Part shown: one piece after another, positions 1 through 17,104 of the stretch
Layout of the letters: each line of letters opens with the position of its first letter
Position numbering within the stretch: the stretch's first letter is position 1
Notes under the pieces: model-generated
Database searches by the model: none
The model's input: only the letters and a program-made list of their open reading frames with translations
What the model was told of the DNA's origin: nothing
Position numbers and translations under genes: made by a program
Assembly (NCBI GenBank): GCA_009733575.1
Contig: ML769388.1
Span: 372,001 to 436,000 of the forward strand
From: Gymnopus androsaceus JB14
Lineage: Eukaryota > Basidiomycota > Agaricomycetes > Agaricales > Omphalotaceae
Direction of reading: 5' to 3'
Length of the DNA stretch: 64,000 nucleotides

Positions 1-2401
1 GAACTTTTTCCAAATCCACCTCCAGTTCCCCAATCGCTACCTCTCGGTTTTGAATTACACGTTCCAGCGCATCCACTTTTTCCGTAAGCGCTAGCTTTGC
101 GCCAGTAAGCTCAACAATCTTCGGACGCATCTCATCCAGCGAGTGCATCAGGTTCGTACCCTCTTCTTGAAGTTCCTTTTGGGCCCTTTCCGCATTCTCT
201 GCACGTCTATTCGCGATCTTTGCCTCGTTTTGGGCAGTCTGCAACTGTCGCGAATTGGCTGCTAGTTCAGTGGCTGCATCTGACAACTTTTCTTGTAGAA
301 GAGCCAATGCCTTCTGCGTGCTTTCCATCTCTGTCTGCAGCGAAAGCTTGTCTTGAGAGAGGGTCTCTTTCTCCGAGATCGTTTGTGTGAGCTGCGATTC
401 GACCAGCTTGTGCTGGACATGGAGGTCGGAATGTTTAGATTTCCATTCGTTTTCGCCTTCGCTATGTGTTCGTATGCGTGATTCGAGTTCGTCTCGTTCG
501 GATCTGAGAGAAGAATGTTCCTGAGGTAATGTAAGTACCATGTGCAGACTAAAAGTGAAGAAGCCTCACTTGTTTAAGTTTCGAGAGTTGGAATTCGATT
601 TCATCCGCACGATCCTGAGTGTTTTTGAGGGACTCCTCCAAGCGGTCAGCTCGGTCATCGCTTTGGATCTGTTCCTCAAGCTCACGAACCCGACGACGAT
701 GTTTCTCGGCCTCTTTGCGGGATGAAGTCAACGAGCCATTGGCTATCTGCAGTTGGCGTTCCTGTATTCACGCAGTCAGTATAATTTATCAAACAGGACA
801 ATCGAGTAGTAGCTACAACTCACCTGGTCTTTTGTTTTATCTGCTAATGTTTTTTCTGTAGCTTCCAAAGTCTGTATTCTTGTTGTAGAATCTTGGATTT
901 CGGCTCGAAGCTGCTGCAAATGCTCTTCCAGATTACTTGACTTCAGTTGCTCTTCAGCAAGCAGCCGTTCAGTCTCCTGGGAACCTGTTATGAGAGAGAT
1001 ATCAGACTCGTGCTTTTTTTGGTAGGGAAGAAGCCGTACGCGACTCTACATCTGACAAGCGTTCTAGGTCGGAAGTTAAGGCAGCCTTTTCCGAAACCAG
1101 TAAAGAAATCGTCTGTTGCTCGTTCCGGAGAGAAGCTTCTGTGTCAGCCTGAAGCTGCTGGAACTGCTGTTCGAGTTGACTCGAATGTCGACGGAGCTCC
1201 TCTAGAGCTTTCTCACTCTGTTGCAGTTCTGAGATGCGGGCTAAGAACAGAAACTTCGAAGACGTAGATAGTATTCACGTACTAGATGTAGCATCGTCCA
1301 ACTTTCCATTCAGGTCACTTTTTAGCTTCTCAATCTCAGTCTTCAAAGCATTCTCGGACTGCTGTAACCCTGAGTTCTAGTTAGACAGGTGAAACTCGGA
1401 TAGAGATGGAACCTACTAGCTTTTGCAGTCTCGAGCTCAGTCAAAGTGCTCTTCATATTCTTATTTTCGGCTCTCAAGTTGGTTTCGGTTCGCTGAAGAT
1501 CTGTAGGCGATTAGAACCTAATGCAGCCGAATATGGATTCGAGGCCGTACTAGATTTTGAAGCTTCCGCTTGTGCCAAATTAGCTCGTAATGCGTCCATC
1601 TCGGTCTTCAGTGAGGATTCACGCTTTACCCAGTCTGATGAACCATTAGTTGGGGTGACAGAGCCATCGAGAATAAACATACCGGATTTCGCAGTCTCCA
1701 GTGGTGTGAGCTTTGCTACGAGAGTTTCATTCTCGGATTTCACAGAGTTTGCAGCTTTCTGTGATTCTAAGGTTCCAACATGAATTGTTCATACTAGGGA
1801 TCCGTCGCGAAGAAGACATACCAGCTTTCTCCGACTCCAACCGCTCTATCTTTAGGTTCAACTCCTCATTCTCTTTCCTGAAATAATTGATCTCCTCTTG
1901 CAACTGCATTGCTTGACGGCCATTGATTAGAGTTGAAGTAAAATCCGCAGAAACTGGGGTACTGGGATCATTCACTGCAGCCGTGGGCGGAGGAGCTGGC
2001 GGAGGAGTGCCCACTCGCGTCAATGAGGATAACCACGACGTGTCATTGTTATCGTCTGCAATGAAGCTATTTCCAGAGAACCGAAACGACAGAGTCAGCT
2101 CAAGGTTGCCCAGAGCAATCCAGTATACACTCACACGTCGCTAAGATCTCGTTTCTCGGGTTCGAGTTCAGCAGGTGCAGGTGCAGGTTCCGGAGGCGCT
2201 GGAGAGAAGGCACGCTCGCTAATTGGTGAAGTTACTCCAGGAGTAGATCCTGAAGGGGTTCCGGCCTTCTTCGCCTGGCGCTTCTTGAGCTGAAAGAATG
2301 CAAATGTCCAATTAATTCTTGTCGTGTCAGTTACTGGAAGTAGTAAAAGCTACCATAGCCTTCGCTCGAGCAGCTTTAGCAGCACGATCATCTTCAGACA
2401 T
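1..2401 (-). CDS. Golgin-like coiled-coil protein (C-terminus outside the window)
   Basis: The start codon is at 2401-2399. Exon 1 (2401-2354) ends in a Met codon, and after an intron exon 2 begins at 2289, giving MSEDDRAAKAARAKAM followed by LKKRQAKKAGTPSG. A Pro/Ala-rich linker follows, and further exons down to base 1 encode long heptad-like stretches such as EEINYFRKENEELNLKIERL. The basic Ala/Lys N-terminus followed by a Pro-rich linker and an extended coiled coil resembles golgins (GM130/Rud3-like tethers on Golgi membranes). That family assignment is inference; a generic coiled-coil scaffold is possible. Many short introns interrupt the coiled coil, and the C-terminus, where a GRIP or GRAB domain would sit, is not in the window. 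Confidence 0.65.
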
Positions 2402-2884
2402 CTCAGCGAGGACTTGGGTCTAGGACTGAGCCACGTTGGGCCAGGTAGTAAAGTATAGGTAGATTTGAGGTAGAAAGTTGCGTCGAACGTGTGACTGACG
2501 CCCTATACAAGTTCACTAGCGCCCACGGATTAGAGTAATTTCCTTGTTCCAATAGTTAGAATATGAATTTATCGCTATATATGAGGCATCAGAAGCAAAC
2601 GAGAGAATAAAACAGAAAAATATGTAGCCAAAGAATATGTAAACCACAAGTTAGAACAAAAGCCATGTTTAGAGAAAGATAGAGAGGCAGAGCGAGAGAA
2701 AAACGGCGTGCAATAAGAATATTTAGCATGTAACGACAGACTCGGAGGCGCCCATTCCGAAAATACGACGAAAGGGCGCAGGTAAGATAGGCAAATGATC
2801 ATATAAGATGATGAAGAGCAAGTAGTGGGGTGCTCAAAGTGAGAAAGGTGTCCAGCAATGAAAAAATCGTAGCTCTATAATACA

Positions 2885-4153
2885 TCATGCCCACACCTAA
2901 TTGACAAAAAAAGTATTAATATAGCCCGAATAAGAAAGAGATGACTGCTTACCCTAAGAGTACTGTCCCAACTACCAGTACAAAGCGCCATGCCGTCGGT
3001 GCTGACACCCAAGCAACTGACGCGGTTTTCGTGTCCAGTTAATACACCAACACGTTCACCCTTGAGTGTATCCCAGACATTGCACGTCCAGTCATCGTAA
3101 CCACCGAACAAAATTCGTCCAGAGATCGAGAAGGCTACGGATGTGATACCGCAAAGGATGTTGTCATGAGTAAACGTGTTGAGCTCTCTGTCAGCCCGAA
3201 TGTCGAATAATCGACAGGAAGCATCGTCAGAGCCAGTAGCGAACGCATCGCCATTGGGGAAGAATCTAGGAACAGGATTTAGTTAAACATGCGTTTTGAT
3301 AAAGGAGTGAGGCACGCACTGTACGGCGTTGATATCAGATTCATGCCCAGTGAATGTTTGAGTCGCACGGCCACTTCTGATGTCCCAAAGCTTGGCAGTA
3401 GCATCACAAGCTCCCGAGACGAAAACATTCTGGTTGGGGCCCAGTGACAAGCTGTGCAATCGATTAAGTATTGAAGAAAAAATAAAGCAACGAATAGGAG
3501 CAAACCTCATAACATCACCAGTATGGTCACTAAATTCTACGACTCTCACACCAGCCTCGATATCCCACAACATGCAAGTCATGTCTCCAGAGCTGGTCAC
3601 GATTTGTCTGTCATTGAGGAAACGACAGCAACTCAGGTAACCGGAATGGGCGCTCAGTTCTCTTGCACCTCGCATGTTGGTGCCTTCCTTGCTGTTGAGA
3701 TTATATATGGAGCAGATGTTGTCAAGACCACCGCAAGCGACAAAGTTGCCTGAAGGAGAGTAGGCGCAGGTCATGACCCAGCTAGATCGTAAAGGAATAG
3801 CATGGACTTTGTTGGTGGTGTAGGCATCCCAGACGATGAGTTTACCGTCCTGAGAAGCCGAGACGAGATGTCTCCTATCGGCAGCCCAATGCATAGCGTA
3901 AATTTTGGCAAGATGACCTCGTAGGGCTCGTCTGGGCCGCATGACAATACGAGGAAGAGCGTCAACTTCAGCAGCCATTGCACGCACTAAAGGGGCAAGC
4001 TTTGAGTGAGCAAAACTTGGAGAACAATGAGAATTACTCACAGCTGGTATCCGCCGACGACTCCTTCTTTGCACGAATCTTCTCCTTTAGGCTCTCAGCC
4101 TCTCTGCGAGCAGCAGCGATACGCTCCTGAATATCACCTTGATTTTGAGACAT
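2885..4153 (-). CDS. Heterotrimeric G-protein beta subunit (seven WD40 repeats)
   Basis: Seven WD40 blades can be read across several exons: [68 protein letters not shown], the [14 protein letters not shown] blade, [12 protein letters not shown] and the final SWDSTLR-VW blade. The N-terminus [20 protein letters not shown] is the amphipathic helix that pairs with G-gamma. The last exon is only 12 nt (2896-2885) and encodes Val-Trp-Ala-stop. Order, length (about 350 residues) and the helix fit Gbeta of the STE4/SfaD/GPB1 type, which acts at the plasma membrane in pheromone and nutrient signalling. Divergent WD proteins such as RACK1 lack this N-terminal helix. The gene lies head-to-tail upstream of the golgin gene. 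Confidence 0.93.
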
Positions 4154-4409
4154 GTTTTTGAGTGTATGTGGTGAAAGACGAGCTGGAAATAACGGAAATG
4201 CAAGGAAATTGCTGCTGGCAACTGTGATTAATGAAGAGAATGAGGTAAGATGGAAAAAAGCAGCCTACAATGTTCAAAGGAAAGGGCAAGTGCCGAAATT
4301 TCGGTCAAAGGTGGAAGGATTATAGCAGGGATCCTTTCGAGCTAGTCTTGTTTACCTACGAGGCAGGACGACCAATGAAAGAAAACCCAGTCTCAGCGGC
4401 GACGAGTTG

Positions 4410-4725
4410 ATGCAAGTCGTGATGGAAGTAGGTGGGAAAATCGAACAATTATTGAGCTACATTAATAAGCAGTTCAGTAGGGGTCAATTTGTCATTATTT
4501 CCGAGGTATTTCTCCTAACTTTACGAGTCTATCCGGTCTCTCCTCTTTCCTTTGTCTTAGGAGCGCGCGCAGGGCGCGTCTTTCTACTTCGCAGTGCGCA
4601 TCATCGTACTTCCAGGCACGGAACGATCGGAGCTCCTCGCTTTCTGGCCAGCAGTCTCGCAGGCTCTGACAGATACAAAAGCTTTGGCACTGGCTGGCAG
4701 CTTTGCTCGTTCCGCCATTCTATAG
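4410..4725 (+). CDS. Possible small two-exon protein of unknown function
   Basis: An 86-residue product is read from ATG 4410 by splicing 4410-4505 to 4561-4725. The intron has GTATTT at the donor, CTAAC-like branch sequence and TTGTCTTAG at the acceptor, and the frame is kept. Exon 1 reads MQVVMEVGGKIEQLLSYINK and exon 2 contains FYFAVRIIVLPG and ELLAFWPAVSQALTDTKALA, so the composition looks protein-like. I recognise no family. Exon 1 stays open upstream to 4326 without a better ATG, so the true 5' end may be elsewhere or this may be a relic. Confidence 0.33.
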
Positions 4726-5997
4726 GACCATCATCGGTACACTAGCGATGGAAGCCCGGCTGATTGATCATTACTGCGTGCTTATCATTCACATTCCACA
4801 CAGATTTTTGTGAACGGTGCCCAATACTTTTGTTTCAGCCAGGTACAATCCGTCTCTGTTGACCAATACATCTGTTGGTTTGGAACACCGGCCCACTGAC
4901 AGTCACTGCACGTAGCTTCCATTTTGAAGTTGTAGAAGTCTCCCAAATTTTATGATTGAGATTTGGTTGATTTACCAACATCTGGAGCCACGGCGCGGTA
5001 AGGCCTATTTAATTATATTCTTCCGCCTACATGTTCCATCGTACGAGAAGCTTATTTTGTTCGATAGAAATTGGAGCTTCTTGGAACAGAAATAATAGTG
5101 GTTGTTACATGCGGGCATATTTCTGCGCAATTAATTCCCGTTTGTACTGTTTAGACTTTCAGCTCTTAGGCCCGCGGTTGGTCCTTGTTTCAAAGTGAGT
5201 TGAGCTCCATGATAGTAACGAGTAAACTACGGCTGGACACATTTCTTTCAGCAATCCAAGTTCTGATCACGATCAGTTCGGTTCTGCATTCCAGGAGGTG
5301 CACCACATGAACTGCTCGCAATCCCGTCCAGAATGAAATACCCGGCCTTTGTGGTGATCTCGTCTTCCAATTACTCCCACTTCATTATTTTCTGAATATC
5401 ATCTTCAGGCAATGCTAGCTTCGTTAACGAGAACCAGATACACCATTGAAACATTTCCTGGATCCGCGGCGCGCTTCTGGTTATCAGATCGCGGGAAGCA
5501 GGGTCAACTTTTAGAAAGTGGGAGAATCATCGTGGCTTGGATCGCTCTCAACCTATCAACGATAAGGGCTCAATAGCTACTTCGCGGAGCTTGAACTGAC
5601 CTCGACCACTGGCTGAGAACAGGACGGCTGATAGTGCAATAGCACTAGCGCTTATCCGGTGCTCGAAATTGACAATCACAGCTGAACCACAAAACTACGG
5701 TTGATGCAAGAAAATGGAGTCAGAGTAAATGTCAGTTTTGCTACTCCGCCATATTCATCGCATTATTCTTCTAGCGCTTGCGCTTCCGACATGTACGCTG
5801 TTTTTTAATCGAATAAACGCCCAACTTATCCCAAGCTCGCAGTTGTGTTTTTTATCGGTCTCCTCGTATACTCGAGCAATACACTGTGAGTCTGTAAGCG
5901 CTCATCTTCAACCACACACATACCCTGGTAAAATGCTTTGAATAATGACAGGAAAGTGCGTCGAATTTTACTAGCCTGAGAAACGAGCGTTTGATCC
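4726..5997. other. Intergenic stretch without recognisable gene
   Basis: About 1.27 kb with only short open frames. The longest plus-strand one (5729-5941) begins with hydrophobic residues but has no further support. I see no repeat, RNA gene or domain signature. Confidence 0.5.
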
Positions 5998-6289
5998 ATG
6001 CCTCGAGTTGTTACTTCAGGAAAAATGACTCTCAGACTCAGTTTTTTGATTTCTTTTATAAATTTTGGCGCTTTGATCCTTGGAATTTTTGTTTTCCCCG
6101 TAGGTCTTCGTCCATCCAACAAGCCTCTCGGAAACAAAATGACCCCTCAACTGAGAAAGGAATTCAAAACATTGCCTGCTATGCGGAATTTAGTAAGTTC
6201 GTCCATATGGACTGGTCTTCATTTCTAGTATGCTCACTGACACCTGGATTCAGTTTCTCTCAATACTCATAGCAATCAATGATGCTTAA
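5998..6289 (+). CDS. Small single-pass membrane or secreted protein, two exons
   Basis: Exon 1 (5998-6192) and exon 2 (6254-6289) join in frame across a consensus intron with GTAAGT donor, CTGAC branch and TTCAG acceptor. The second in-frame Met at 6025 gives a 67-residue product that starts with MTLRLSFLISFINFGALILG, a strongly hydrophobic segment fitting a signal anchor; starting at 5998 gives 76 residues. The rest is basic, for example KMTPQLRKEFKTLPAMRNL. I know no family for it. It lies about 130 bp upstream of the first dsRBD mini-gene on the same strand. Confidence 0.42.
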
Positions 6290-6420
6290 GCTGAATGGAA
6301 TTCAGAGCCCCGCCTTCGGAACTGCTAGATATTTGTAGGCAGGAGGAAGTCCTTTAAAACTGCGATGTCGCGAAAGCATAGAACCCACTACTATTCACCT
6401 TGTATAATTCCCAGAGCTAG

Positions 6421-6751
6421 ATGGCTGAACGTTAGTACTGTCTCAGTCGGGAATGTTTTGACTGACCACGATTGAACAGATCCTCGTACTGCGCTCAACA
6501 ACTGGTCTGCTCGGACGGGTAAAAACATTTTCTATCAGGAGCAGCGCTTTGGCCCCCAACATGCTGAAGTTTGGATTGTCAAAGTTTACGGTGCGTCGAA
6601 TTATGCTTCGGGTTTTGTAGAAGACTCAATGCCGATTCTAGTGGACGGAGAGCAGTATGGCGCCGGCCAAGCGACGCGTAAAGAAACCGCGAAAGAGGCC
6701 GCTGCTATTCAAGCTGTAAATGTCCTGAGGAATTACGGGCACCAAGTTTGA
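6421..6751 (+). CDS. dsRBD mini-protein A (single double-stranded RNA-binding domain)
   Basis: Exon 1 (6421-6430, ATGGCTGAAC) joins exon 2 (6480-6751) across a GTTAGT..AACAG intron, giving 93 residues. Almost the whole protein is one dsRBD: helix 1 TALNNWSARTGKNIFYQE, the loop-2 motif GPQHAEVW, a beta strand WIVKVYGAS, then GAGQATRKETAKEAAAIQAV, which covers the G.G.(S/T).K..AK..AA helix-2 signature. The insertion between beta 2 and beta 3 (about residues 48-60) is slightly longer than usual. The key dsRNA contacts of the family, the GP.H loop and the basic K..AK helix, are present. No catalytic, helicase or localisation domain is attached. It may bind dsRNA alone or dimerise with other dsRBD proteins; that role is inference. 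It is the first of three paralogs in tandem. Confidence 0.82.
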
Positions 6752-7657
6752 CCGGCCAGAAATATCCCGACCATTAACACCCAAACTACAGCAGCCCTTC
6801 CGATATGGAGATTAGACCGGGCTTAATATTTATTTCAACAGAATCTCTATTTAATTATCTAGTGCTTATATTAGTACTTATCCAACTCTAATATTATTAT
6901 CAGCACCCAGGTTCAACCAAGGTTCACCCCTATCGCGCGCCCACACTGTTTCTCACAGTCCATCAACTTTGTTTCTCTTTTCGAACCATTCAACCATTCA
7001 ACTAAGCTCAACGTTCAATGTTGCTTCGCTTGTGTTGGATCGCCGACGACACTCCTTCTTTACTTGTCTCGAATGCTACAGCTCCTCAGACCTTCATTTC
7101 CGTCTTGTGATTGATCACAATCGCTCGGAGGTAACGTTCCTCTCGAGATGGCTTTCCCCACTAGCAAATATAGTACAGGTAATTCGTCAACTCATCTATG
7201 CCAACTTCCTGATAATTGTCGTTTATGAAGCAACGCAGAATGGAACCCTGGAGCGGAAAGACCAGGCGGACTCGTCATGTTCATACAGCTCATATCGCGA
7301 TGGCCGAGACCTGAGAAGACCGCCCATGAGAATACGAACCCTCATCGATGAAAAGTTCCAATCCATTGAATCTCGAGGTTTGCTTGCTTGTTCTGCTTTG
7401 CTTGGAGGAAAATACATGATGTCTCATGCGTCGTCGACGATCTTCTCTTGCTATTTTCATGCTCTCTGTACTACTAGCAAACGGTGTCAATATCCAGCCA
7501 TGAATGAAACCGATCGTCATCTCCACATGAATATCCTCAAGACTCACTGTTGCTGGAGGGTTTTCATTCTACGCGGCGGCTCGGAGGCTTTGGACGAGGG
7601 TATAAAGTAGTGAGGAGCTCGAAAAAAAAGATATTCCACAACACACCAACCTTCTAA
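6752..7657. other. Intergenic stretch between dsRBD genes A and B
   Basis: Contains AT-rich sequence after gene A, then a 213-codon plus-strand open frame at 6969-7610. That frame has no recognisable domain, is not supported by codon pattern and begins at no convincing start. A short ATG at 7149 followed by a GTAATT donor could begin another tiny spliced gene, but I could not build a convincing product. The 3' end holds the presumptive promoter of gene B. Confidence 0.4.
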
Positions 7658-8071
7658 ATGGCAAATATCCGTACGTATCACTCGCTCTGGCTCTCATAGA
7701 AGCAGCGATATACTCATCTGAACTATTTTCACAGAAGGAACTATAGCACTAAACAACTGTGGGCATTCCTCTTTAACGATATATCCATTTCTGACTTCCC
7801 AACTTTCAGTCTTGCAAAAAAAAAATCGCCTTGATGCTCTAAGCTGGCTAGAGTCTACCTCTGGTCCGAGACATGCTCAAGAGTGGAAATGTGTTTGCAA
7901 GAGTGAGCTCGAAATGGTTTATTTTTCCTCCGGTTTCTAGCATTCTGATCGCCACTCACTGTAGTCGAAGGACAAATCAAAGGCACTGGAACTGCAGCAA
8001 ACAGACATGTTGCCAAGGACATCGCTGCAAATCAAGCTCTGAGGGATTTGGTAGATGCCGCCTGGTCTTGA
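7658..8071 (+). CDS. dsRBD mini-protein B (single double-stranded RNA-binding domain)
   Basis: Four exons, 7658-7670, 7735-7758, 7810-7902 and 7965-8071, splice in frame to a 78-residue protein that is only recognisable after splicing. It starts MANIQGTIALNNFLQKKNRL, followed by DALSWLESTSGPRHAQEW, then strand KCVCKIEGQIKGTGTAA and helix 2 NRHVAKDIAANQALRDLV. The helix 1 LNN.LQ, the GP.H loop and the AK..AA helix are all in place, so this is a complete minimal dsRBD. Helix 2 has NRHVAK where classical domains have KK.AK, so affinity may be lower. The first intron falls just after codon 4 in phase 1, as in gene A. A 158-bp tandem duplication begins inside the last exon. Confidence 0.8.
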
Positions 8072-8337
8072 TTGAATCGTTACACTTTGCTTTTTCTAAA
8101 ATAGTTCTCCTAATTTTGGGCGTCATATTTATTTTGTGTTAGTTTTACATTTTATTTATTTAGCAAGTGTTAGGGAATGTCGCTGCAAATCAAGCTCTGA
8201 GGGATTTGGTAGATGCCGCCTGGTCTCGATTGAATCGTTACACTTTGCTTTTTCTAAAATAGTTCTCCTAATTTTTGGCGTCATATCTATTTTGTGTTAG
8301 TTTTACATTTTATCTATTTAGCAAGTGTTAGGGAATG
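8023..8337 (+). repeat. 158-bp tandem direct repeat, two copies
   Basis: Copy 1 is 8023-8180 and copy 2 is 8181-8337. I count about four differences, so the copies are roughly 97% identical. The unit holds the last 16 codons and 3' flank of dsRBD gene B. In copy 2 the TGA that stops gene B is CGA. Such high identity in a non-conserved 3' flank points to a recent duplication. Confidence 0.93.
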
Positions 8338-8993
8338 AAGCAAACTCAACTACCTGTTGGAAAGATTCTCAAAGTTGGAATTGGGTCCCTCGTGTACTGG
8401 ATGCACTAATGAAAAAAAAAAACTTCGGATCGTTATTCAGTGATATGAGTGATGTAGTAGCCGCGATACAATGAGTTTGAAACGCAAGTCTTGTTACTAC
8501 TATGACACCACTTTGCGACGTATCATACTCCCTTTCGTCATGGAATGTAAAAGCTGATAAGATGCATCTAAAGATTCAAAGCTGCAAAAGCCGGTTACAC
8601 CGCGACAGTGGATCAAGAAACGACCTGAAGATAAACACTGTCGAAACATCGTTTTTCAATATCGTTATCTGAAGAAAGGAGTTAGTACTTCTACTTCAAG
8701 CAAGCGTCTCCGTCAGACTGACTACTGACATACTGAGATTCGGCGCTCGCACCTTTCCTTGCTCAGTTTGTTGTAGCGGTTAATTTTGGTAATAGCCTAC
8801 CCGGAGTGCACACATGGTAGGTATCGTATCTGGTATCCGAACGGTCTCCTTTCTGAAAGCCTTAACTGACCGCATCTCAGGGTACTCAGCCAGACCTCGG
8901 ATGATTAGGCACTTAGCAGTTTTGGTGCACATACATATCTCAAAGCTACAAAAGGACTCCCGACTTCATGGATTTCATACCATCCTCCTCGAC
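8338..8993. other. Intergenic stretch between dsRBD genes B and C
   Basis: No domain could be read in any frame. An 11-base A run lies at about 8410, and the 5' region of gene C makes up the end. A decayed fourth dsRBD copy was looked for and not seen. Confidence 0.45.
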
Positions 8994-9529
8994 ATGTCAA
9001 CTAGTAAGTGCCAATCCAACTGCAAGTGCGACGTCAGCTCATTATGATTTGTTTTCTCAGAATACACGACTCTGTCAACTAGTAAGTGCCAATCCAACTG
9101 CAAGTGCGACGTCAGCTCATTATGATTTGTTTTCTCAGAATACACGACTCAAATCAACAACTGCAAGTCTTGCTATTCGTCTCGCGTCTCTGGAAGCAGC
9201 TCACTATCTGGTGGTTATAGACTTCCAAGCTCAAGGTAGAGAGACGTCCGCGCTCACCTTTCAAGTGTCTTGCGAAGGAGCGTCCGACAAAGCTATGTGG
9301 ACTGTGGTCTGCAAGGGTACGGGCAGCACATTTTTCGTCTGATTTTTGTCTTGCTCACTGGCTCTCAAAGTTTCCGGGGAGCAGAAAGGCGTCGGAACTG
9401 CTTCAACAAAAGCTGTAGCGAAGGATTTGGCGTCCAAGGCAGCTCTTGAGGTATGTAGTTAGATAATAACTGAACGACTTCGATCCGGAGCTGAGGAACG
9501 TATAGGCTCTTGGCGTTGAAACCACCTGA
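8994..9529 (+). CDS. dsRBD mini-protein C (divergent double-stranded RNA-binding domain)
   Basis: Six exons, 8994-9003, 9061-9081, 9139-9162, 9221-9316, 9371-9450 and 9506-9529, splice in frame to 84 residues. The start is MSTKYTTLSTKYTTQINNYF, then QAQGRETSALTFQVSCEGAS, strand DKAMWTVVCKVSGEQKGVGT and helix 2 ASTKAVAKDLASKAALEALG. From INNYF to VVCK it has exactly the spacing of protein B, with introns at the same places and phases. The GP.H loop is replaced by EGASDK, so one of the usual dsRNA contacts is missing; TK.VAK in helix 2 is kept. Intron 3 (9163-9220) begins GCAAGT, the classic GC-AG donor, which is needed to keep the domain in frame. Exons 1-2 come from a 78-bp duplication. Confidence 0.72.
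8995..9150 (+). repeat. 78-bp tandem repeat duplicating an exon plus intron
   Basis: Bases 8995-9072 and 9073-9150 appear identical. The unit is one 57-nt intron plus 21 nt of coding sequence. Each copy keeps a GTAAGT donor and a TTTTCTCAG acceptor, so the duplication adds one in-frame exon encoding a seven-residue repeat (KYTTLST then KYTTQIN) at the N-terminus of dsRBD protein C. Confidence 0.92.
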
Positions 9530-9748
9530 CGGGCGCAGACGCCTAAGGGCCATCTCGTTCTTGAAGCTGCATAATTTTCCATGATGTCGCCTATGTACTA
9601 TATACATACACTACAATACACAGAATGAAGTCAATTTCGGATCGGTTCAATCAGATCTCGCTATTAGACGCGCTTTAGTTGAGCAGTGGCAGTGATAGCA
9701 ATTTCGCGGAGTTCGAATTTAACCGACGTTAACGTGTCACCAACGTCG

Positions 9749-10046
9749 ATGCAGAGTCGATTTGGACCATATATGGTGGCTGCTTTAGCAGGTGGGTTGA
9801 TTCAAAGGTAGTTTTGAGTTGAACACTAAAATCTAGTCCAGGAGTGGCAGCTTCAGTGTATGCATTCAAGCCTTATGCTTTTGGAGGTGCACAAATGTGA
9901 GTGGTTCCAAAATGCTTGGGTCAGAAATAAGTGTTCATTCTGTTGGCTCAAGGATGCAACCTGTGCTCGAACCTGATAAAACGGCTGCGAAGTCTGATAC
10001 GACTACATCGCAGCCAGACCTCAGTAAAAATGACAAAAAGGAATAA
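9749..10046 (+). CDS. Small single-pass membrane protein, probably mitochondrial
   Basis: Exons 9749-9791, 9842-9896 and 9953-10046 splice in frame to 63 residues. The product starts MQSRFGPYMVAALAGVAASV, continues YAFKPYAFGG, and ends in a hydrophilic Lys/Asp-rich tail, DLSKNDKKE. One N-terminal transmembrane helix with almost no acidic residues ahead of it, followed by a charged tail, fits small inner-membrane subunits or assembly factors. That localisation is inference and I recognise no named family. It is convergent with the SAD1 gene. Confidence 0.6.
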
Positions 10047-10397
10047 GTCCAAAACGAGTGCTATGATACAACTATGATATCACACCGAGACTTCTTCTGA
10101 TCTACCGCCGGTACTTAGCGGCCACCAATTCTGTGTTTAGACTACTGGGCTTCCTCTTCCCGCAGAGCAAATCAAATCAATTTTCTTGTTCAAAAATTTT
10201 TTGAAGGAAGATTTTCCTTTCTAGGACCTTTAAGTTTAATCGAAAGTCGCAAAATTCAGCTTGAACCAATACTCCATTAGTTATGTATGTAAATGCGTTA
10301 TATCACGCCGCAGGAACCCAATTCAGGAGAAGAATTCGAAGATGACATAGAAATGGATCATTTGTCGACGACATACGGGTTGCGTACGGGAGGGCTA

Positions 10398-12294
10398 TCA
10401 GCTTGAAGTAGGCTCGGGTCTCTTTTCCCAGATCTAGTAAGACAGACCTTTCAGAACAAACTCGGGACGAACAGAGATTTCTTACCTGCAAAATACTTTC
10501 TCCCAAAAAGATCATTTCTTTTCGGGTTTCTTCCACAATCAGGTCTTGGATGGTGTACCATTTTTCGTGTTCACCTTCTCCTGCTCGTAGATGCACTTTC
10601 CATATGGTGTTCTCCTTATCGCGGGTAGTCCCCGCTACTGACTCGTGGGTCACATTGGCGACCAGATCGTACAAGGACGATGACTGAGATGTCAAATCAA
10701 CGTCTACGAGTTTTGGCATTGAGATGAGTCGGTCTCTACAAATAACGCGAACGTACAGTCTTTGAAATCTAGGCCACGAAGCGGGAAGGTGACGATGGTG
10801 GGATTTTTCTCTTCTACGAAGATATTCTTGGTGAAGCGTTTGAAGTGTGATATAATGTAGGGAGGCAGGCGCTGACATTTGTATCGTCTTAACTGTCCGG
10901 AAGATTCCTTGGGCAAAAATTTGAGTCAATCTCTAATCAAGATCGTACAGTGATAAACGCTCACCTGCGTTGTCCGTCCATCATACTTGGATAGTACGGA
11001 CTGGATACTGACTTGAGGAACGATGTTCTTCTCGACGGAATCTTGGAAAAGAGGTGGGGGTGGCAAGTCCACGGCCAAGAATAAGAAGGGTGATATAACG
11101 GACTTAATATCTTGGAGGCACGGTGAGAACAGCGATTGAAAAGAGGGGACGGGCGTACCTCGAGCGATATCAAAGCGGGGCTTCTCATTTTCTCCGGAAT
11201 CTGGTCGCACAAGGACTTGTTGCGTTTCTACTCGGAGCTCTCCTTGAAAAGTGGAAAATATGATACCTACCTAAAACGTTAGTAAAACCCAGAGATTAAA
11301 GCCGAATTATTCGCACTGGAGTTTTTCTTCTTGGAACCACCCATGTCCTTATGCAGATGATTTAATAACCATCCTAAGAACTCAACAGGATCTCCTTGCT
11401 GTTCCAAACTGAATTTCCCGGCGCTTGCTCTGTTCACCTCTTGTAGAAACTCGTGTGGACTGACCTGGCTTTTGAATAGCCGTGGGTTCCAAACCTTCTT
11501 CGCTAACCCTGCGAAACGTTTTAGCAGCTCAGGCTCTTTGCCGTGGAAGTTGGACAGCAATAGATAGTCTCGCAGTGGAGCGACATGAAGAAGTGCGTGT
11601 ATCACCACGTTCATGTGGTCATTCCGTTTGATGTTGTTAAGTCCAACGTAGCCGGGCAGATATGGTTTCGATGCCAAATCGTATGACAACTTGGTAGGAT
11701 AAGATGCCGGAGGAGAGGGTAGACGTATATGATTTATTGAACGATGGAGCAAGCACAAAAGAGATATCTTCCAGAGAGGGGTCCGAGACTGGGTAGCCGT
11801 CTGGGAGCACGTAGACCTGAGCTTTGATTAGCTGTAGTCCCTGGAGTCTGAAGGAATCACACCTTGGTAGTCTCCAGATGAATGAAAACATGATGATCGT
11901 CGTGTATTGAGTGGGCATACGCATATGACTTGCGGCCACGACCTTGGAAATACTTTCCGCAGACTAGACAGCCATATGTGTTGATATTGGAAGTAGAGAC
12001 CGAACAGACTTTTTCAAAGTCAAAGTCAAGAACTGCACGGTTAATCTAAAGGCAAAAGAAATTAGAAGAAGAGCAGGACAATGCTGAGGGCCCTACCGTG
12101 TCCAGATACAGGTCGGAAGCCTTGACTTCCTCCATCGTATTTGGGACCTCATCGAACTCTTCATCTTCCTCCGCATTGCTTTCGCTCACCCCAGCCAAAG
12201 AAATGGGCGCGGGGGTTTCTTTTTCATTGCTGACTCTGGCGCGTTTGCTAGGCCTGTCGCCTTCCTCGACATTGTGGGTCCTGGTAGTGGCCAT
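10398..12294 (-). CDS. SAD1: Sad1/USP39-like tri-snRNP splicing factor (inactive ubiquitin-protease fold)
   Basis: The N-terminus MATTRTHNVEEGDRPSKRAR is acidic and basic low complexity. It is followed by a UBP-type zinc finger with SNINTYGCLVCGKYF and HSIHDDHHVFIHLET. The USP fold begins PYLPGYVGLNNIKRNDHMNV: the position of the catalytic Cys of active USPs is Asp here (KRND), as in USP39 (KAND), so the protein is expected to be non-catalytic. Later blocks are QQGDPVEFLGWLLNHLH and EKWYTIQDLIVEE, and the last exon ends IWEKRPEPTSS. The family is needed for assembly of U4/U6.U5 tri-snRNP in the nucleus. The exon boundary after SLEDISF is uncertain; the simplest splice gives a slightly short linker. 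Confidence 0.9.
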
Positions 12295-12367
12295 CTAATG
12301 AGCAATAGCCACGTGCCTCAACTACGCGCTTTTTCTCAGTCTCTTGCTCATCGTCTCTACTACTTTC
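12295..12367. promoter_or_regulatory. 73-bp divergent promoter between SAD1 and RSM22
   Basis: Only 73 bases separate the ATG of SAD1 (minus) from the ATG of RSM22 (plus), so both 5' UTRs and a shared promoter must be squeezed together or overlap the coding ends. A CACGTG E-box-like hexamer core (CCACGTGCC) lies at about 12309-12317. No TATA box is visible. The E-box role is inference. Confidence 0.5.
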
Positions 12368-14611
12368 ATGTCTCTTGTTGCCAGAGGCAATTGGAAAACT
12401 CTACTTCGAATTACTCATAAATATTGCGCGCATTCTACTACGGCACCTTCCTTTGGGCAGCTTAATCCTGCCCTGAACCTTGACCCAAGTCTTCAAGCTC
12501 TGCTCAAAGATGTCGATATATCCCTGACTCGTCACAAAGTAGCGTTCCCATCTCATCGGGAACTTGATGTCATTCCTCCAGAGCCCACTGAGGATAGTGC
12601 ATTAGTCGCCCGGGATTCCGAAGATTCCGTTTCAGACGAAGAATCTTTGCAAAGGAAATCTCCAGCGGCGATCTTTGGTAGTCAGGGAATTGGGGCCGTA
12701 GTCCTCCCGCTAGAGATGCAAAACACCATCAATCTCTTGATATCTGGTAAGGCTCATAACTTGAGCGGTATAATCCTCCAGATGACTGACTTTGGGGCAG
12801 AGACGGACAAGCGAGCGCTCCACAGCGATGCAAAACGGCTATTCCAAGGAGACGAAGTTGATAGCCAGGATGTGCAATGGAATTCCAACTTTGACAAGAA
12901 ATACCGTTCTCGACACCAAGCCTCAGCGCCATTCAGAGCGTGATGGGACCGCATTTGCTTCTATCGCTCTTCCGGCTCACTACTCCGCTATACGTGCGGT
13001 ATTAACTCATGTTAACCACCGTCTTGGTCCTGACTGGAGCGTATCAAAGGTGATTGATTGGGGAGCAGGTACTGGGAGTCGGACTCTGGTTGGTTCACCT
13101 TTTAGTCTGCTAGGTTCTGTCAAACTTAATTTGGGAAACAGGGCCTCGGTTCACACATTTCAACATGATGCAAATGCTTCACGAGACGAGGAAGGCCTGA
13201 AGGTTTCTGATACTACCCTTCAAACTTATATTGGGATTGATAAACGGGACGGACTCGTTACCATTGGCAAACGCCTTCTTCGGGGTTAGTGGCGTCCACA
13301 GTATATCAGCGATTCAACCTTTTAACCGCGCGCGCCTTTTCTAGATATTAGAAGTAACGACCTAAGTGTATCATGGCAAAAGGCTTTTCACGATGATGAT
13401 AAAATGCCCCGAGTACTTGGTCATGACACCGTTGCGTTATCAGCCTTCAATCTTACTTCTCTTCCGACCAATCTAGCTCGGAAATCTCTTGTCAAAGAAA
13501 TGTGGGAGAGCGGGGCTCATACTATGGTATGTATGCACGTATGAGGCAGTAACTGAACGTGTGCCCCTAACCAATAGCAGATTCTGATAGATCATAACAC
13601 TCCCACTGGTTTCGAACATATCGCGGAGGCAAGAGAGCTCCTTCTTAAAATGGGCAGGAAAGAAATGGCAGATCTTTCTGCAGAGGGCTCTATTCGGGGA
13701 TCACACGTTGTAGCTCCAGTCAGTTCTCTTTTTGATTATCGATGTATGTTTTTCTAACGTATCGCTCTAGTGCCCTCATGATGGTAAATGCCCCTTACAT
13801 CACCCGGGCTCAGTGCGACTGGTCTGCGGCTTCTCCCAGCGCTTGCAGAGGCCCTCATTCGTCCGCCTCACAAAACACTCCCCCACCGGCCATGAAGACA
13901 CAGGTTACTCATACGTTGTCATTCAACGAGGAGAAAGACCTGCCCGCCCCGAAAGTAAGCTGGGACGTGTTGGGGCTGTCGGGAAAAGGGAGCTCGACAA
14001 GGAATCAGAAACTCAACCAGTCATAAAAGAATTGAGTTTGCACAGTGAAGAGAGTGTACAACCTACGGACACCGTGCCACCGGAGGTCTCTGATGTCGTT
14101 GCTCTGGACTCCAATCCACTTCAGTTACCTCTTGACAGCGAACTCAAGGAAGAATTACGACAAGAAGCCTACAGCTGGCCACGTCTTATCTTCCCCCCGT
14201 TAAAAAAAAGTGGGCATATCATATTGGATGCTTGCACACCTGAAGGTATTTTTAAAAATATACATGGACTGTTCTCTTCGCTGACCAAACGACCAGGAAA
14301 AATCATGCGCTTAACTGTTCCGAAGTCACAGGGAAAGCAAGCCATATTACGACGCCCGAAAGTCAAACTGGGGCGATATTTTCCCTCATGAACCCAAGAA
14401 TCCGCCGCAGGAGCGTTACCAGCCTCGAGCAAAGCGAGCCGGTGGTGCTACGGCCGTCAAAGGGTCTGACATTGGAAAGCGGACGGGCAAAACCTTCAAG
14501 GAAGAGAAGCCCCCAAAGAGTCGTGTCAGCTACGAAGGGCTTTCGGAAAATCTCAAAGAGACCAGGAAAAAGTCGAAGAGAGATAGAGTAGCTACACAAT
14601 GGGTCGAATAA
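12368..14611 (+). CDS. RSM22: Rsm22/METTL17-like mitochondrial ribosome assembly methyltransferase-fold protein
   Basis: The start MSLVARGNWKTLLRITHKYC is an Arg/Lys-containing, acid-free mitochondrial presequence. Then come LDVIPPEP and GAVVLPLEMQNTINLLI, DGTAFASIALPAHYSAI, and the SAM-fold motif VIDWGAGTGS. Downstream are LARKSLVKEMWESGAHT, ILIDHNTPTGFEHI and the Cys-containing CPHDGKCPL region, which in METTL17/Rsm22 helps bind a metal cluster. The C-terminus is Lys-rich (KRTGKTFKEEKPPKSR) and ends VATQWVE. These blocks in this order are characteristic of Rsm22, which works in assembly of the mitochondrial small ribosomal subunit. Several short introns, for example after GAGTGS. It is convergent with the uL1m gene 161 bp away. 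Confidence 0.92.
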
Positions 14612-14772
14612 ATAACAGACATTTACTGTATAATAGTCGCTCTCTGCTCAATTGTATCCTTATTGGTAGATGTTCGTAAAGATTATATTTGTAGATTTAA
14701 AAGTCTGTTATCCGAATACCTGGGCCTCTAGTAGAACTAAGTAATACCTTGCTGATGAGCACTGGAAAGAGG

Positions 14773-15767
14773 TTATAACATATCTCGAGGAGAAGTAATT
14801 CCTTCCATACCTGGTTTTTTGGTTTCCTTTTGGCGATTGTCCTTGATGTTTCCCGTGGCCTGCTTGACGGAGGTCATGAAATGGCGGAAGTTTTTCACAA
14901 CCTCGTCCACTGAAAAATGCATCTAGCGAAAGGAAGTCAAGCAAGAGAAGCTGCTGAACAGGATGAAAAAGACCCACCGAGCCTATGGGCATATGTATAT
15001 TTCCGGTCTTGTCAGCCTTCCATTCGCTGGTGCCTTGGATACGTTCGATGTATCCTGCGATATCGTCGGTGACAGTACCTCGTCTTTCTGCAGGCATGAG
15101 ACCTTGTTGACCGAGGAAACGACCCAGTCGCGGTGTTATAGCGCGAATCAATGAAGTAGTGCAAAGGTACGTTGTAGCTCGAATCCGATTGTTGAGTATC
15201 TGGACCGCGACGAAATCAGAATTATGAAGAATGTCGAAAGAAAATCGACCACTTACACCTTCAATGAGCTCGATTCCACCGACAATATGGGCACCAGCTT
15301 TCTTTGCTTCATCTGCTTGTCTGCCCTCCGCAAACACCAGAATTGACTCTTCCGCTCGCGCCTTTGCTTCTTTGGGTAGCTTGAACCGACCCTTGGGTAC
15401 AGCTACACCGCTTCCCATCTCCGTCTTGATAAACAGCTCATACATGGCATTCGGAGAAGCTACTTCCACTGCCTAAAAAAATGGTCTCGTGAATTCACAA
15501 CGTAGAGCTGATATACAGGTCAGTACGCACGCGTAAAACTGAAATTGCATTCTGGAGAGGAAGTTGTTCGAGCTTGCTTACAGCAAATGCAGTTTTCGCG
15601 GCTCGTCTTTTGGCTTTTGCAGCGAGGGCTTTCTTTGATGGCTGTCTGATTTTGGTCTCGTTTTTGCGGGCCTGAGCTACGTGGCTTAGCGTGAAATTTC
15701 GGGTGAAAATCACGGAGCCTATGTTGCTGCGGCAGCAGTGTCTACTGAACGATAGAAATGTGGACAT
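14773..15767 (-). CDS. MRPL1: Mitochondrial large-subunit ribosomal protein uL1m
   Basis: The start MSTFLSFSRHCCRSNIGSVI with RNFTLSHVAQARKNETK is a mitochondrial presequence. The Lys/Ala-rich helix KKALAAKAKRRAAKTAF and the uL1 core follow: ELFIKTEMGSGVAVPKGRFK, ILVFAEGRQADEAKKAGAHI, VGGIELIEG, RLGRFLGQQGLMPAERRGTV and WKADKTGNIHMPIGSV, then DEVVKNFRHFMTSVKQA. The GR.LG..GLMP motif is diagnostic of uL1, which forms the L1 stalk that moves deacylated tRNA out of the E site. The final exon ends GMEGITSPRDML. Confidence 0.95.
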
Positions 15768-17104
15768 AATGTAGGCGACGGCGTAGTGAGAAAAGCAGAG
15801 TGCTTCGGCCCGGCATCGGCCGCAGTGGTGATTTCAGTCCCGAACTGGACAGGGGTTTCGACAGGGGTTTCGATATCGACCTCCAATATCACTAAACTAT
15901 GACACCAAGGGCGTTCATCTTTGAGGCATTAAAACTTAAAAGCTTTCGGAGGCCTTTTACTCGGCCTTTCAAAATTGCTACCTTGGCAAACCAAGGGCCC
16001 CAGCTACAAAACTTTCAAAAAATTCAGTGACGAGTAAAGGGCCATGAAACGATTTCCCCCAGTGTGAAGTTCTGCCTAGTTCTGCACAGCACTGCTAGGT
16101 TCTGGAAACCTTACGCAGGTAATTTTCACATGTACTTATAACTAAGGTTCAAGGAAATAGCAGAACGCCTCCGGATCCATGGGAGAATTACTTCACCCAT
16201 TTGGTGATACATACTTCAGTTAACAAAGAGAAAATTGGCACCATCGGATATAGGGAATGTGGAGGCTGTTCCAGTGAACTTAATTTTCTAAGCTATTTAC
16301 AGAAGGTTCATTCAAGGTAAAGCGATGACAGAGTTTCGGATCCTTTGAGAAGGCTCATCCTTAAATGGTGTTGCATATGCGCATCTTCCACAACAGAAAA
16401 TCCCGCGGACGTTAGAAAAAGGAAGGAAGGGGTAGGGTAGTTATGTGGCATGGTCCCTGGACAGAATGTACACTAGCCAAAGTCCACTTGCCGCAGATGT
16501 ACTACCAGCCTCCAGGTTATCAATCTGAAATCTGCCAGCTACATCCAGCAGTTTAATTTCAAACATAGGTCTAGCTCTTCTTAGGAGTCTACCAATGTTG
16601 TCCAGATCTTAGATTCTTGAGAACAGATTTGAATCCTGAACTATATTCATAGTGTGCGGAACGTTTGACAAAACCATCACTACTTGCGTTAAAATTGAAG
16701 GTGACGGTGCACTCAGAAAATAATGTAGCGCTTACTGTCAAGATACGGCTTGTTTGGATAAAGATGTATCCTTTGCGCACTTAACAAGGGTGCATTTGTG
16801 GCAAATTCGGAAAGATGAAAGATAGCAAAGGCACACGGGAGAATCTCCGAGTCTTGACAGCCCATGCTGTTCATCAGAGCCTGGAGGAGATCGTGAAGGA
16901 GTTGCGGTATTTGCTTAGTATACCTTTAACCCATTCAATCCGCTGAGGATTGAAAGGCCTTTGGTGTACTGACACAAGGAAGCTATATCGGTGCCAATAA
17001 ACGCGAGAAATCGATCTAATGACATGACCACTGAGGACTCGTGAGTTTTCCTAGTCCTTATCCTAGTCAACACCCTGGAATATTTTTTAGAAACCGAAGA
17101 ATAG
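15768..17104. other. Gene-poor stretch
   Basis: About 1.3 kb with no recognised gene. On the minus strand around 16790-16440 two neighbouring open stretches, one containing VTFNFNASSDGFVKRSAHYE and one ending GLWLVYILSRDHAT, could be exons of an unknown gene, but no start or convincing splice was found. A short direct repeat (GACAGGGGTTTCGA, twice at about 15849-15876) is present. Confidence 0.4.

Follow-up and report, generated by a model that had tools for sequence, protein, structure and literature searches.

Three adjacent minimal double-stranded RNA-binding domain genes in Gymnopus androsaceus, one a predicted member of a family of small Agaricomycete proteins

On the plus strand of a 64,000-nucleotide stretch of the Gymnopus androsaceus JB14 genome (the window: contig C6, positions 372001-436000, within an 83.3-Mb assembly), three small genes lie side by side, each predicted to encode one double-stranded RNA-binding domain (dsRBD) and almost nothing else. 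We refer to them as A, B and C. Their sequences and predicted structures point to three old minimal dsRBD paralogues, among which B would be the likeliest accessory factor handling double-stranded RNA (dsRNA); help to Dicer in RNA interference (RNAi) is our best guess at its task. We give this reading as a whole a probability of about 0.45.

Results

Three spliced genes with one dsRBD each

The three genes and the intron that determines the length of A are as follows.

6421..6751, plus strand: gene A; three exons (6421-6430, 6480-6590, 6642-6751) encoding a 76-amino-acid single-dsRBD protein, from splicing, Pfam and the deposited protein
6591..6641, plus strand: intron of A; 51 nt, phase 1, starting GTGCGT and ending CTAG; its site matches that of the CK-strand intron in B and C, and it is identical at 51/51 positions in the copy on contig C88
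7658..8071, plus strand: gene B; four exons (7658-7670, 7735-7758, 7810-7902, 7965-8071) encoding a 78-amino-acid single-dsRBD protein
8994..9529, plus strand: gene C; six exons (8994-9003, 9061-9081, 9139-9162, 9221-9316, 9371-9450, 9506-9529) encoding an 84-amino-acid single-dsRBD protein

The initial annotation of this DNA had described mini-genes of 93, 78 and 84 residues with one dsRBD each. We found that these lengths hold for B and C, and that the value for A resulted from a missed intron: excision of the 51 nt shortens the protein from 93 to 76 amino acids and raises its score against the Pfam dsrm profile (PF00035) from 28.8 to 43 bits. The 76-residue product is identical to the deposited protein BT96DRAFT_913406 (P0001), and the 84-residue product of C is identical to BT96DRAFT_586201 (P0002). 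B itself was absent from the matches of three protein-database searches whose query alignments included it, and this gene therefore probably lacks annotation.

As had been proposed, splicing in silico divides B into four and C into six tiny exons, with intron ends of the GT/GC..AG type and a single GC donor in C, at 9163. Exons in the cluster are as short as 10-24 nt, which shows how genes like B can escape annotation. The introns of A, B and C measure 49-64 nt (51-64 nt in B and C), and only the last intron of C departs from phase 1. All three genes have a phase-1 intron following codon 3-4, and another follows the LNN motif in B and C; both had been noted before. The phase-1 intron after the VCK/VYK strand, previously recognized in B and C, is present in A too, which strengthens the architectural argument for paralogy. 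Given their fit to the splicing signals and, for A and C, to the deposited models, A, B and C look real as spliced single-dsRBD genes.

All three proteins score above the curated dsrm cut-off of 23 bits (A 43, B 40.7, C 31.7), and Pfam finds one dsRBD in each; the domain assignment made earlier for B and C thus stands. We also scanned the 64-kb window with a spliced profile built from 36 proteins, none labelled Gymnopus and three (P0014, P0015, P0018) without a species name. This profile recovered B at 121.9 bits, with 4/4 exons, C at 69.5 and A at 67.3, compared with null maxima of 17.6-20.7 bits in six Markov shuffles and 18.8 bits in the reversed window. Because the 36 proteins came from searches begun with A, B and C, the profile is independent in sequence but not in discovery. 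A fourth dsRBD member was not found in the window: the next-best sites in two spliced-profile scans, at 21.9 and 21.2 bits, lie at the null level.

B belongs to a predicted family of about 77 residues

The three protein-database alignment searches gave 6, 53 and 18 rows. Such a search covers candidates near the query length that share short words with it, so that dsRBDs of this type inside large proteins are outside its coverage and genus counts are lower bounds. In the second and third searches, 42 distinct rows carry the name of a species that is not G. androsaceus; a further ten (nine from the second search and, from the third, P0056) lack a species name and were not counted. Together the named rows place the family in at least 23 genera besides Gymnopus, including Lentinula, Collybiopsis, Armillaria, Marasmius, Trametes, Fibroporia, Lactarius, Russula, Suillus, Jaapia and Cantharellus, all of which we take to be Agaricomycetes. 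The named proteins are mostly small: 31 of the 42 have 69-102 amino acids (two are marked partial), and the other 11 have 112-147. Database entries from mushrooms (Lentinula, Armillaria, Lactarius, Trametes and others) bear only the label 'DRBM domain-containing protein'; P0051 and P0052, which have no species name, are labelled ribonuclease III. When 38 of 56 family proteins were passed to a Pfam count and to folding, 38/38 database proteins matched dsrm at E <= 0.01.

B is 45-70% identical to 28 of 29 aligned B-type members (60-70% to those of Lentinula and Collybiopsis, 45-55% to others aligned) and 36% identical to the remaining one, from Cantharellus. It carries the B-type signature, LNNxLQ, W, GPxHAPxWT, CKIDG, K(H)xA(R), with a few substitutions, and A and C carry it only in part. 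By eye, two deposited relatives appear to retain introns in their protein sequences, P0031 after LNN and P0038 after the CK strand. From these comparisons, we conclude that B is, as predicted from sequence, the local member of an Agaricomycete family of single-dsRBD proteins of about 77 amino acids, and that A and C are putative diverged relatives of it. The family of B being present in at least 23 further genera of Agaricomycetes, minimal dsRBD genes are, as judged from annotation, ordinary in mushrooms.

Predicted fold and RNA-contact positions

AlphaFold2 predicted the alpha-beta-beta-beta-alpha order for both A (predicted local distance difference test, pLDDT, 87; predicted template modelling score, pTM, 0.70) and C (pLDDT 80, pTM 0.64). 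With the model of A, Foldseek returned 44 matches at E <= 0.001, among them PKR, TRBP, Staufen1, RNase III and the DRB7.2:DRB4 complex, several of them RNA-bound structures. At the sequence level, a search with the family profile matched 43 distinct PDB sequences, PKR first.

In dsRBDs, contact with RNA is made by the GPxH loop and by the basic residues at which helix 2 begins. We counted these and other positions in 31 B-type rows of a 46-row alignment, a choice of our own that raises the conservation seen: N11, Q15, W25 and W38 are invariant, a K or R stands at position 57 in 31/31 and at position 61 in 29/31, and H34 is kept in 26/31. Left out were 15 rows: the three genes A, B and C, another five Gymnopus copies, and seven sequences that have diverged (meta_P0033, Jaapia_2, two from Suillus, two from Russula and one from Marasmius fiardii). 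In the alignment, the GPxH motif and the two outer basic positions are preserved in A and B, whereas their middle lysine is exchanged. Because of the domain identity, and because the contact positions are largely kept, A and B are likely to bind dsRNA.

Relationships among A, B and C

Pairwise, the three proteins are 30-37% identical; in the alignment with B-type members, A and C show 29-37% identity to B. The tree (46 rows, 79 columns) leaves 21 of 43 inner branches open, with a bootstrap that had not settled; in it, A groups with three other Gymnopus copies (support 100/99), C pairs with the Marasmius fiardii protein P0055 (97/97), and B is placed without resolution in the main group. The shared phase-1 introns support a common ancestry of A, B and C, in agreement with the earlier proposal of paralogy. 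The accompanying idea of a family expanding in tandem was not borne out: the identities are no higher than 30-37%, A lies beside dispersed Gymnopus copies and C beside a Marasmius protein. The copying that we observed is dispersed and not in tandem. These groupings indicate that the cluster holds three apparently old paralogous lineages side by side, not fresh tandem copies.

Copies elsewhere in the genome

Family relatives within this genome, which the initial annotation had anticipated, were found in searches with A, B and C; these ran exon by exon, and copy counts are therefore lower bounds. A-type copies occur on contigs C88, C92 and C51, and C74 has a weaker relative; of the C type there is one relative on C94 and a broken copy on C88; the B query matched the window only. 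The C88 A-type copy is deposited as a whole protein (P0003). A genome-wide dsrm search also matched C4 and C31, which resemble each other and have other introns, and C10, an 869-amino-acid frame that we read as helicase-like. As close copies, C94 (degraded), C4 and C31 (distant, with different introns) and C10 were rejected; they are related or dsRBD-bearing only.

The following local duplications were found.

4513..9362, plus strand: copied stretch of 4.8 kb, corresponding to C88 102094-105142, minus strand, in six pieces of 71-88% identity
8022..8337, plus strand: 158-nt tandem duplication, two copies, 97% identical, covering the end of the last exon of B and its 3' flank
8995..9150, plus strand: perfect 78-nt tandem duplication, which doubles the first exon and intron of C and adds seven residues to the protein

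Relative to the window, the C88 stretch contains an intact A and a broken C, and lacks 7448-8837, with gene B, and 7107-7340. We considered whether it is an allele from the other nucleus of the dikaryon and rejected this. C88 96500-110000 matches only 4513-9362 of window positions 1-16000, and the window at 9700-14500, to the right of the cluster, is single copy by DNA; the stretch is thus a segmental duplicate rather than an allele.

A and its C88 copy differ by 0.131 at nonsynonymous (dN) and 0.22 at synonymous sites (dS), and their introns are identical at 43/48 and 51/51 positions. Their exons differ at 29/213 positions and their introns at 5/99 (Fisher p 0.03), and the value rises to p 0.16 against introns plus flanks. 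For nonsynonymous sites the corresponding values, p 0.08 and 0.39, are not significant. None of these comparisons reaches significance when the flanks are added, and we do not claim positive selection in A; the dN/dS values of the six A-type pairs, 0.30-1.08, suggest that the A type changes amino acids quickly.

The C92 (L027 3988-6617) and C51 (L028 787-3378) copies share a 2.7-kb upstream flank (78% identity) that is unlike the flank of A in the window, and these A-type copies were therefore duplicated along with other DNA. DNA beside the C94 relative (L029 3882-4991) resembles that beside the C4 dsRBD gene (L031 5231-6414) at 68-70%; one translated piece of it had no Pfam match. Another group of small dsRBD proteins, distant from this family and marked by GHLALFNQHxQK..., comprises P0030, P0033, P0049 and L031/L032; three of its members are from Gymnopus (C4, C31 and P0030, the last on a 4.9-kb contig), and it includes unnamed relatives.

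Dicer-like loci

Dicer_dimer matches occur at three loci (C38, C102, C3), each with an RNase III match over the cut-off; one further RNase III match, on C80, is below it. Neither a scan of the three Dicer_dimer loci, covering about 8 kb per locus, nor the genome-wide dsrm search found a dsRBD above noise there, the scan profiles being biased to the single-dsRBD family so that a diverged Dicer dsRBD could escape. According to excerpts of a 2025 survey, 62.7% of fungal Dicers fall in a class without PAZ and dsRBD, and 9.4%, chiefly from Basidiomycota, are without helicase and dsRBD (PMC12663654). An excerpt of the funRNA study reports that Agaricomycotina have more Argonaute, Dicer and RNA-dependent RNA polymerase genes than the other subphyla of fungi (PMC4290597).

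Neighbourhood of the cluster

Two identified genes flank the cluster.

2885..4153, minus strand: gene to the left of the cluster, for the beta subunit of a heterotrimeric G protein; boundaries placed by eye, PF25391 at 287 bits for one piece
11279..11827, minus strand: right neighbour, ubiquitin carboxyl-terminal hydrolase gene, open frame forming part of the gene; PF00443 at 54.3 bits for one piece

Between A and B, window positions 6855-7610 contain a 251-codon open frame, of which a 213-amino-acid part had no Pfam match; because 234 bp of it are missing from the C88 copy, this frame may be chance or non-coding. By eye, what looks like another small spliced gene (...YAFKPYAFGGAQM...) follows right after C on the plus strand, at about 9773-10046.

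Discussion

Our results suggest a model in which each protein would grip A-form dsRNA with three elements: helix 1, the GPxH loop and the basic residues that open helix 2. B would be the conserved member, a small accessory factor of dsRNA metabolism, most plausibly in the RNAi pathway, that could hold dsRNA for, or hand it over to, Dicers in which no dsRBD was detected above noise. A and C would be diverged relatives, the subfamily of A showing fast amino-acid change and having copies at three or more further sites, and C having lost the GPxH loop while retaining the outer basic positions. The proposal of a Dicer helper rests on the Dicer loci without a detectable dsRBD, on the similar picture in the literature and on the wealth of RNAi genes in Agaricomycotina; the partnership of B with Dicer itself is a guess. 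The roles that the initial annotation proposed, tuning of RNAi and sensing of mycoviral dsRNA, are conjectural here. A wider version, in which mushrooms share a stand-alone dsRBD protein of about 77 residues that supplies the missing or diverged dsRNA binding of their Dicers in trans, while A-type side branches spread copies through the genome and diversify as they compete with dsRNA from mycoviruses or transposons in an arms race, strikes us as a long shot.

Several observations weigh against the accessory-factor model. Where KKxAK usually has its second lysine, 20/31 B-type sequences have H, protein A has E and protein C has A, and binding may therefore be weak; this applies above all to C, in which GASDKA replaces the GPxH loop and two outer basic positions are kept. 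For the A type, dN/dS values of 0.30-1.08 across six pairs fit relaxed constraint as well as diversification. The proposed link to Dicer is also indirect, and the dsRBDs of the Dicers may be diverged rather than absent: in the Dicer-like gene on C102, the second RNase III domain is followed by a weak helix-2-like piece (L051 3407-3472, minus strand; 20.1 bits, noise level). The 2025 survey, in an excerpt, itself warns that divergence may account for part of the undetected Dicer dsRBDs (PMC12663654).

The main rival is that these proteins act as competitors or buffers, coating dsRNA so as to keep Dicer off and thereby damping RNAi or protecting structured cellular RNAs. A lone dsRBD without a second domain would be the simplest masker of dsRNA, the RNA-contact positions are retained in B-type proteins, and an excerpted report describes suppression of RNAi by a dsRNA-binding protein of viral origin (PMC4231766). 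The occurrence in many genera and the nearly fixed length, however, suit housekeeping better than occasional suppression, and we regard this rival as unlikely.

Equally doubtful, in our view, is that the subfamily of A together with C consists of decaying or neutrally drifting copies and that only B is functional. The highest dN/dS among A-type pairs (1.08) would fit decay, as would the finding of a start exon for A and the C88 copy but none for C92 or C51, the broken C copy on C88, and the C94 relative, which by eye has lost an acceptor AG, though its frame reads on. Against decay, none of the dsRBD-coding frames of A and the C88, C92 and C51 copies is interrupted, whole proteins are deposited for A, C and the C88 copy, and in the tree C has a Marasmius protein as its partner. 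Uninterrupted frames say little in this respect, as the probability of remaining stop-free is 0.32 to 0.08 after 29 to 110 neutral changes.

A role outside RNAi, in a ribonucleoprotein, ribosome assembly or mRNA decay, is the most improbable of the three rivals: dsRBDs are found in many ribonucleoproteins and some Foldseek matches of A are mitochondrial ribosomal proteins, but these rank under the dsRBDs of PKR, Staufen and TRBP, and by eye the few residues that precede the domain in B-type proteins are too short for a mitochondrial signal.

The B type is a conserved, tiny and apparently uncharacterised putative dsRNA-binding protein of fungi whose RNAi gene sets are enlarged, and it should lend itself readily to knockout and binding experiments. 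Such work could reveal how fungal Dicers without an obvious dsRBD meet their substrate.

Comparison with known systems

Stand-alone dsRBD proteins are a known kind, and this family appears to be undescribed: no description of the family of about 77 amino acids was found in the open-licence literature searched. The initial annotation was aware of no description of such a cluster in mushrooms; as noted above, minimal dsRBD genes as such are ordinary there at the level of annotation. PKR, Staufen, TRBP, Loquacious, ADAR and RNase III share with the proteins described here the domain (PF00035) and, for the models of A and C, the predicted fold; the nearest solved relative of A is the dsRBD region of PKR by sequence and PKR dsRBD1 by fold. 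In those proteins the dsRBDs, often two or more, sit within larger chains, whereas A, B and C consist of little besides the domain. Dicer partners of the TRBP, Loquacious and DRB4 type carry two or three dsRBDs; A, B and C have one each.

Viral suppressors of RNAi, exemplified in an excerpted report by the iridovirus IIV-6 protein, resemble the proposed proteins as dsRNA binders that act on RNAi (PMC4231766). The genes studied here differ from these in being spliced and chromosomal, on an 836-kb contig between G-protein beta subunit and ubiquitin hydrolase neighbours, with relatives across Agaricomycetes.

Arabidopsis DRB7.2 is a single-dsRBD partner of the Dicer-pathway protein DRB4; it is a plant protein and is longer than A, B and C. 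It offers the likeness of one dsRBD serving as a partner module, and the DRB7.2:DRB4 complex (8igd) matches the fold of A at E 5.8e-4; the resemblance shown is one of fold, not of specific sequence kinship.

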